A stretch of 21,546 nucleotides of DNA from a virus: IMG/VR virus record IMGVR_UViG_3300025889_001101, positions 1 to 21,546 of that record; one strand, written 5' to 3'. Below, in pieces: positions 20,171 to 21,397 of the stretch. The position numbers were made by a program, and so were the translations under genes. Numbering within the stretch: the stretch's first letter is position 1; the number at the start of each line of letters is the position of its first letter. The notes beneath the pieces were generated by a model, which saw nothing but the letters and a program-made list of their open reading frames with translations, had not been told where the DNA came from and made no database searches.

Positions 20171-20821
20171 ATGGCTTATTTAAATGCAAACATACCACCG
20201 ATCTATTGCAATGTAAGGAAGGAATATCTTTATGATCTTAAAAAACATCAAGATGAAAGTGAAGAATGTATTATCTTCGGTGTTGCTTCTATTTCAGGCC
20301 GTGCGTTATTATTTCACATTATGTTACCGAATGGCGCTGTCTACTATAGATTACCGATTTCTGCGTTTTTTCAAAAAAATTTTTCAAGAAGCCAAGTTCC
20401 GAATATGCGCGTCGATGAGCTTCAATTATGGAATTGCTTTAGTTATTGGCCTAGCGTTCATACTTTTGATTTTTTAGCTGGTGTAGAAGGTAAATATCTT
20501 GGAAAAGATAAAAAATTTTATACTGGTCAATATTTATTTACTATTGACTGGGCTCACCCAGAGACTAATATACTAAATACGGAACATTCTGAAATTCCGC
20601 AAGAGCACAAATGTGCACACATAATTGCATTAGATAATGGAAATTATGCTGCCCAGCCAAATAACAGAATCATTTGGCATATAAATAATTACACAACAAG
20701 CAATGAATGGCCAGACTATAAGGTGCAATCTAGTGTTTGGGATGTAGAAGGAAGAGATTGGGTAACTGAAGATTCTGATAAAATGTTTTATGAGGTAAAT
20801 GAAAATGAAAAGAATATGTAA
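20171..20821 (+). CDS. Hypothetical protein following the polymerase
   Basis: 216 residues; GAGGA four to five bases upstream. No enzyme motif is recognised. The N-terminal half is dense and ordered: IPPIYCNVRKEYLYDLKKHQ (8-27), CIIFGVASISGRALLFHIML (33-52), GAVYYRLPISAFFQ, VDELQLWNCFSYWPSVHTFD. The second half contains WAHPETNILNTEHSEIPQEH and aromatic strands (NRIIWHINNYTTSNEWPDYK). Acidic and aromatic overall, soluble. The first 250 bases use more G/C-rich codons (CGT GCG, CGC GTC) than the surroundings, suggesting strong sequence constraint or a different origin. Position directly after the polymerase suggests a replication-linked or early role, unproven. Confidence 0.7.
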   Translation: MAYLNANIPPIYCNVRKEYLYDLKKHQDESEECIIFGVASISGRALLFHIMLPNGAVYYRLPISAFFQKNFSRSQVPNMRVDELQLWNCFSYWPSVHTFDFLAGVEGKYLGKDKKFYTGQYLFTIDWAHPETNILNTEHSEIPQEHKCAHIIALDNGNYAAQPNNRIIWHINNYTTSNEWPDYKVQSSVWDVEGRDWVTEDSDKMFYEVNENEKNM

Positions 20822-21014
20822 AAAATGTAATCACAAATGTCATTGTAAAGGACAAGGATATTATGTGAGTGATTCTTCTTGTGAAGATTATTGTAAATGT
20901 AAAAATTGTTGTCACAACGAAGAAGATTTGTTAAAACAAATTAATAAGGAGAGACCAATGATTAAAAAATTATGGAAAAAATTTGTAGATTGGGTATTTA
21001 AAGATTTTTACTAA
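20805..21014 (+). CDS. Cys-rich small protein with amphipathic C-terminus
   Basis: 69 residues from ATG 20805, chosen because GAGG (20792-20795) lies nine bases before it but only three before the alternative ATG at 20799. Nine cysteines fall in the first 36 residues (C5, C8, C12, C14, C26, C30, C32, C35, C36), with CKKCNHKCHC and YCKCKNCCHN clusters and several His, so zinc binding is likely, in a knuckle or metallothionein-like fold. After a charged linker (EEDLLKQINKERP) the last 18 residues form a cationic amphipathic helix. An in-frame ATG at 20958 with its own strong ribosome site may also produce that helix alone. It overlaps both neighbours. Confidence 0.7.
   Translation: MKRICKKCNHKCHCKGQGYYVSDSSCEDYCKCKNCCHNEEDLLKQINKERPMIKKLWKKFVDWVFKDFY
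20946..20953 (+). promoter_or_regulatory. Strong internal ribosome binding site
   Basis: AAGGAGAG lies in the coding sequence of the Cys-rich gene, four bases before an in-frame ATG at 20958. It is stronger than the site of the full-length gene and suggests internal initiation of an 18-codon product. Confidence 0.5.
20958..21014 (+). CDS. Possible 18-residue amphipathic peptide from internal start
   Basis: Same frame as the Cys-rich gene; the product would be MIKKLWKKFVDWVFKDFY. On a helical wheel at 100 degrees per residue, K3, K4, K7, K8, D11 and K15 fall within about 140 degrees, and most Trp, Phe, Val, Ile and Leu lie opposite. Net charge is positive. It resembles membrane-active peptides. 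It ends in a TAATG overlap with the next gene, which has no ribosome site of its own, so the internal site may mainly feed that gene by coupling. Confidence 0.4.
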   Translation: MIKKLWKKFVDWVFKDFY

Positions 21015-21397
21015 TGTCCAAGATAACTGAAGACACATCTGTAAAAACAGATATTAAAACAATTGTGACTATCATAGCCGCAGCAGGTTTTGCTGTGTAT
21101 ATGTATATTGGTATGACTAATACTATCAATACACTTGAGACAAGACTTCAGTTAATGGAAGCAGATTTACTAAAGAAGGCAGATCAAATACCTGTCGATA
21201 AGGAACAGTTTTTTCTGTTAGAGTCATTAGCAGAAGATACTGAGAAACAACAAAAAATATTAGAGGAAAACCTGCACGTTAAAGTTATGCTTATGCAGGC
21301 TGAAAAGGAAATTGAAAAACTAAAAAAAGATGTTGAAAAGCTTAAAGACGCAACAAGAGATATTCAATTTAGCAATGGGAATGGAAACGGGCATTAA
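21014..21397 (+). CDS. Membrane-anchored coiled-coil protein
   Basis: 127 residues. One transmembrane helix at about 16-34 (TIVTIIAAAGFAVYMYIGM) follows a short polar N-terminus. Then come coiled coils at 38-56 and 68-115 (LAEDTEKQQKILEENLHVKV, EKEIEKLKKDVEKLKDATRD) and a Gly/Asn/His tail (NGNGNGH). The layout recalls inner-membrane spanins, but there is no partner lipoprotein gene or endolysin beside it and it lies in the replication block. Tethering of replication or host factors to the membrane is equally possible. It has no Shine-Dalgarno and starts within the upstream stop. Confidence 0.7.
   Translation: MSKITEDTSVKTDIKTIVTIIAAAGFAVYMYIGMTNTINTLETRLQLMEADLLKKADQIPVDKEQFFLLESLAEDTEKQQKILEENLHVKVMLMQAEKEIEKLKKDVEKLKDATRDIQFSNGNGNGH

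Follow-up and report, generated by a model that had tools for sequence, protein, structure and literature searches.

An in-frame nested start in a cysteine-rich phage gene probably yields a separate amphipathic peptide

Introduction

In mycobacteriophage Ms6, the two products of lysA, the full-length lysin and Lysin241, are large enzymes with a common catalytic domain, as has been shown experimentally (PMC3111421). Very small phage proteins are known from the disruptins, which are phage-encoded peptides for the outer-membrane step of lysis, and whose archetype is a short amphipathic helix (PMC12819732). According to the same source, approximately 13% of the Caudovirales phages with Gram-negative hosts have no recognisable spanins.

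Few studies appear to have dealt with lysis in pelagiphages. None dedicated to it turned up in a full-text search of one literature collection, and the main text of the HTVC027P transcriptome paper contains nothing on gp12, a cysteine-rich (Cys-rich) protein to which we return below. A conserved membrane peptide encoded near an endolysin gene is therefore a testable candidate. In this paper we analyse a 21.5-kb virus record, the whole of which we call the window, whose relatives are Pelagibacter phages of the HTVC023P type. A preliminary description of this sequence had proposed that a Cys-rich gene contains a nested start releasing an 18-residue peptide.

Results

A nested start within the Cys-rich gene

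The genes of interest follow one another in the order polA, the phrog_3704 gene, the Cys-rich ORF and the membrane/coiled-coil gene; their coordinates are given in Table 1. The Cys-rich ORF encodes a domain of the form CxxCxHxCHC...C...CxCxxC followed by an amphipathic C-terminal tail. The SD spacing is better at its second ATG, at 20805, than at its first (20799). The coiled-coil gene has weak matches to Rz-like spanins. Homologues of the gene at 20171-20821 are called PurM in GenBank and ferredoxin in PHROGs and have no Pfam match; the function label of this gene looks unreliable.

Table 1. Features at the nested start, in coordinates of the window.
Feature	Position	Strand	Basis or remark
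Upstream gene, phrog_3704	20171..20821	+	3' end overlaps Cys-rich start; relatives' labels PurM or ferredoxin
Cys-rich ORF, 71 aa (69-71 by start used)	20799..21014	+	ORF list and homologue alignment
Internal Shine-Dalgarno (SD) AAGGAGAG	20946..20953	+	Duplex energy; retained in nested homologues
Putative nested in-frame ORF, 18-residue amphipathic cationic peptide MIKKLWKKFVDWVFKDFY	20958..21014 incl. stop	+	Homologues, selection, helix prediction
Next gene, N-terminal membrane segment and coiled coil, phrog_20984	21014..21397	+	Starts within peptide stop

As the preliminary description had stated, and as can be read directly in the sequence, AAGGAGAG stands four bases (ACCA) before an ATG (20958-20960) that shares the frame of the Cys-rich ORF. 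The same description had judged this site better than the gene's own, and the duplex energies agree: the internal site scores -8.2 kcal/mol, as compared with -5.0 at 20799 and -6.9 at 20805. None of the 109 internal in-frame ATGs in the 14 other genes of the window is preceded by an SD as strong as this. A larger background comprised 3017 internal ATGs from 327 longer genes, both in the window and in related loci; SD matches of 6 nt or longer occur at 0.2% of these, of 5 nt or longer at 4.0%, and of 4 nt or longer at 12.7%. Together, the first of these backgrounds and the 0.2% of the second rule out a chance SD at 20946-20953. The accessibility of the internal SD in the RNA is unremarkable (0.53, background 0.50 +/- 0.17). 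Like in-frame nested phage genes, the nested ORF has its own ribosome-binding site and an internal start codon in the same frame.

At its other end, the stop codon of the peptide (TAA, 21012-21014) shares one base with the ATG of the next gene, forming TAATG. The duplex energy at the start of this coiled-coil gene is -1.0 kcal/mol. As the gene thus lacks an SD, its translation is probably coupled. Given the TAATG overlap and the missing SD, the internal start should also raise the translation of the coiled-coil gene.

The Cys-rich domain

The pattern of Cys and His residues is invariant across an alignment of 21 homologues. This pattern is the sole basis on which the protein can be described as metal-binding, as it had been at first, and comparison with known families did not add to it: no profile from Pfam, PHROGs or PDB matches the Cys-rich protein of the window. 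The one sub-threshold match, Lar-like, came from HTVC027P gp12. AlphaFold2 gave low confidence on the Cys-rich part. When the 71-aa protein and its distant relatives were compared by tblastn with annotated phages, there were no matches or only weak ones, and the bacterial genomes searched contained no relatives.

Arrangements of the peptide among relatives

We gathered approximately 60 close loci by anchoring on the downstream coiled-coil gene, and in nearly all of them the peptide lies directly upstream of that gene. It occurs in three arrangements: as a stand-alone ORF of 21-28 residues with its own start (L019, L027, L032/L033, L036-L038, L047, L061 and L065), as an ORF distinct from a preceding, separate Cys-rich gene (L028, L039 and L054), and nested in frame, as in the window. 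The stand-alone peptide of L019/L065 is MINWFKKQWQKFVDWVFKDFY, and the upstream genes there differ; that of L027, L036 and their relatives is MIKWIKKQWQKF(I/V)DWVFDGFYK, directly after the phrog_3704 gene. A comparison of L047 with L041 is instructive. Both have a common upstream end (..TKLRRKK), after which the peptide comes either at once or with the Cys-rich module interposed, so that the module is present or absent precisely at the junction of start signal and peptide. When the arrangements are mapped by parsimony onto the coiled-coil gene tree, the nested label requires 7 changes and the stand-alone label 8; many forks of this tree are weak, and at least 2 changes per label are forced by its well-supported branches.

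The pairing of peptide and coiled-coil gene is restricted to this close group, because no peptide is found immediately upstream either in coiled-coil homologues of approximately 50% identity (L071 etc.) or in L057-L059/L066. Outside the nested arrangement, the W/K-rich tail is also found fused but without an internal Met, in L111, L118, L151 and others and in HTVC027P gp12. Since such distant relatives, together with L031 of the close group, have a fused tail with neither Met nor SD, the free form of the peptide is not universal. The distant relatives also bear out the idea that the tail works as part of the long protein, and there perhaps only so, since they keep it with no internal start.

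Other ORFs occur in similar positions. In L140, a nested SD and ATG precede a different, transmembrane-like peptide, whose length and layout resemble those of a 34-aa ORF in 023Pt_psg01 (see Discussion). In six loci (L110, L113, L118, L129, L159 and L243) a second ORF of 41-57 aa, with the pattern M-F/L-D-x-F/L-x-Y-x-F... and a Lys/Arg-rich end, starts in a TAATG after the Cys-rich tail. In L108 and L239, the segment joined to the Cys-rich domain is hydrophobic and has a lipobox-like LLSC or LLGC, followed by CTKEKYPNK or CSKEKYPNK; this fusion has no internal start.

Amphipathicity and constraint

The hydrophobic moment of the 18-residue peptide is 0.55, against a mean of 0.25 for shuffled sequences (p ~0.02), and its net charge is +3. 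The preliminary description had called the helix sharply amphipathic; amphipathic it is, but the adverb is slightly too strong, as D16 sits on the apolar side and K3 at the apolar edge. The stand-alone versions are likewise amphipathic (p between 0.002 and 0.04). AlphaFold2 predicts a helix at residues 52-67 of the long protein, with a mean pLDDT of 72 and 81 in two blocks that cover most of it. For the peptide core, pN/pS is 0.10 in nested copies and 0.19 in stand-alone copies; the core is under purifying selection, stand-alone copies included.

These results bear on the suggestion, also made at the outset, that the internal site merely drives the next gene. If the SD and ATG did nothing but load ribosomes for that gene through TAATG coupling, the peptide being a by-product, we would expect what is seen downstream, namely a gene with no SD whose ATG overlaps the peptide stop. 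However, the residues of the peptide are selected, and its amphipathic pattern kept, even where it stands alone; loci in which the stop and the next ATG do not overlap (TAGTTTATG) still retain the peptide; and tail-only relatives retain the helix with no internal start at all. Since stand-alone copies, too, show constraint on the amino-acid sequence, coupling is insufficient by itself, and we consider it improbable that it is the whole purpose of the site. Coupling probably operates all the same, and it is compatible with a functional peptide.

Retention of the start signal

Among the distinct Cys-rich sequences with a Met near the start of the tail, 37 of 41 show a suitably spaced SD match of 4 nt or longer, three of these 37 being of the weak GGTGA type. 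The linkers differ in their residues (ERP, EEN, EEK, EDT, GET, EVK, EDN and others), and the SD falls in different codon phases. The strong SD motif is present in 24 of 30 distinct linkers with the Met, as compared with 3 of 36 without it. For example, the residues KEV are written AAG GAG GTT before the ATG in L199 and AAA GAA GTT in L207, where there is no ATG. A simulation of synonymous codons over 19 linkers gave a combined p of 1e-4, which, like all p-values for linkers and SDs in this paper, is nominal because the sequences are related. Linkers of the I-G-E type carry no information in this respect, as the SD arises in them regardless of selection. Within the limits of such nominal statistics on related sequences, the start signal is kept beyond the needs of the long protein.

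The preliminary description had proposed to align homologues, and would have taken the loss of the SD or ATG from a conserved protein as evidence against the peptide. The outcome is mixed: in nested close homologues both signals are kept through divergent linkers, but in distant relatives they are absent. The adverse result was thus obtained in part, from the distant relatives and not from the peptide's own close family.

The relatives whose fused tail has no Met (L031, L111, L118, L151 and HTVC027P gp12 among them) are compatible with a reading in which only the full-length protein matters, the helix anchoring its Cys-rich domain and the internal start being left over from a formerly separate gene; in the fused copies, moreover, one frame runs through both parts uninterrupted by a stop. 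Yet a leftover start would decay, whereas the SD and ATG persist across linkers of divergent sequence and codon phase, and linkers with no ATG after them avoid SD codons. The stand-alone copies, in addition, show that the helix works without the Cys-rich part. We think it unlikely, on balance, that the start is such a remnant.

Two probable products from one frame

Both the reading by coupling alone and that by a leftover start rank below a third, which comparison of the homologues makes the probable one: that the gene yields a membrane-anchored Cys-rich protein and, from the same frame, a free amphipathic peptide. Since in related phages a tiny gene of its own encodes the same peptide, a single stretch of DNA probably gives rise to both products. 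This had been the central proposal of the preliminary description, and the comparison supports it strongly, through the stand-alone copies, the retention of SD and ATG, and the absence of SD codons where there is no ATG. It also supports viewing the peptide as an independent conserved unit whose start signal is retained inside the long gene.

On this two-product reading, ribosomes starting at 20799 or 20805 would make a Cys-rich protein of 69-71 residues ending in the amphipathic helix, which is probably its membrane anchor, while those starting at 20958 would make the 18-residue helix alone. Ribosomes terminating at TAATG may also supply the membrane/coiled-coil gene.

Possible target of the free peptide

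From its cationic, Trp/Phe-rich make-up, which is typical of such binding, we infer that the helix binds the membrane interface, presumably lying in the plane of the membrane. The free peptide could instead act on a protein at the membrane, perhaps by regulating a membrane protease or the adjacent coiled-coil protein. Short amphipathic phage helices such as lambda CIII (PMC1838920) have such roles, and the peptide travels with the coiled-coil gene even into a different neighbourhood (L019/L065); its cationic, Trp-rich character and the nearby endolysin favour the bilayer, however, and a protein target seems to us possible but rather doubtful.

In the near-identical contig L021, an M15 endolysin gene (PF08291, phrog_894) starts 842 nt after the start of the coiled-coil gene. 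An M15 endolysin is also downstream in L025, and the coiled-coil homologues of cultured pelagiphages have an M15 or lysozyme gene in their vicinity; in L033 and L052 there is no endolysin within 3 kb downstream. A crude lipobox pattern identified no lipobox ORF in the window, L003 or L021, all of which are fragments. A role in lysis is reasonable in view of the cationic helix, the nearby endolysin genes and the disruptin precedent. We therefore suggest, tentatively and at somewhat less than even odds, that the envelope may be where the peptide acts, late in infection, either assisting lysis or disrupting the outer membrane as the phiKT disruptin does.

Discussion

Comparison of the homologues thus gives evidence that an abundant group of marine phages has a micro-gene nested in frame within another gene. 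The mixture of stand-alone, nested and tail-only forms shows that a tiny gene can fuse to another with its own start kept. A broader scenario, which we offer as speculation and judge unlikely in its entirety, is that these peptides of approximately 18-28 residues, whose genes would rank among the smallest of phages, form a family of membrane peptides with a part in host lysis. The family would have been captured repeatedly as the C-terminal tail of Cys-rich proteins with its start retained, a single frame thereby giving both a free form active on membranes and an anchored form that possibly responds to metal.

Among pelagiphages, HTVC027P and 023Pt_psg01 have the same gene order as the window: polA, the phrog_3704 gene, and then a small ORF for a Cys-rich protein, a membrane peptide or both. 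The gp12 of HTVC027P is Cys-rich and has the tail SWWKKIISWLT, in which, unlike in the window, there is no internal Met. In HTVC023P, a tail-less Cys-rich ORF is overlapped by an amphipathic ORF of 30 aa in another frame; this second ORF (L008:4741-4833, MIDKYLYKFFDALDKFGSLIDNLFKRKKKK) overlaps the end of the short Cys-rich one, and both are unannotated. The pair shows a cultured phage with comparable Cys-rich and peptide ORFs, and its absence from the record illustrates that annotation misses nested genes of this kind. In 023Pt_psg01, a separate transmembrane ORF of 34 aa (L009:4898-5002) stands at the same place instead.

With respect to function, the closest analogy is the phiKT disruptin, as described in PMC12819732, which cites Holt et al. 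2022; no homology is claimed. The likeness lies in a short cationic amphipathic helix encoded by a phage of a Gram-negative host, and the differences are that the peptide of the window is much shorter, is nested in another gene, and is tied to lysis only by its neighbours. With respect to arrangement, the closest precedent is Lysin241, in frame within Ms6 lysA (PMC3111421), again with no claim of homology. Whereas the Ms6 products are both large enzymes, the short product of the window is a predicted helix of 18 residues that lacks the entire N-terminal domain.
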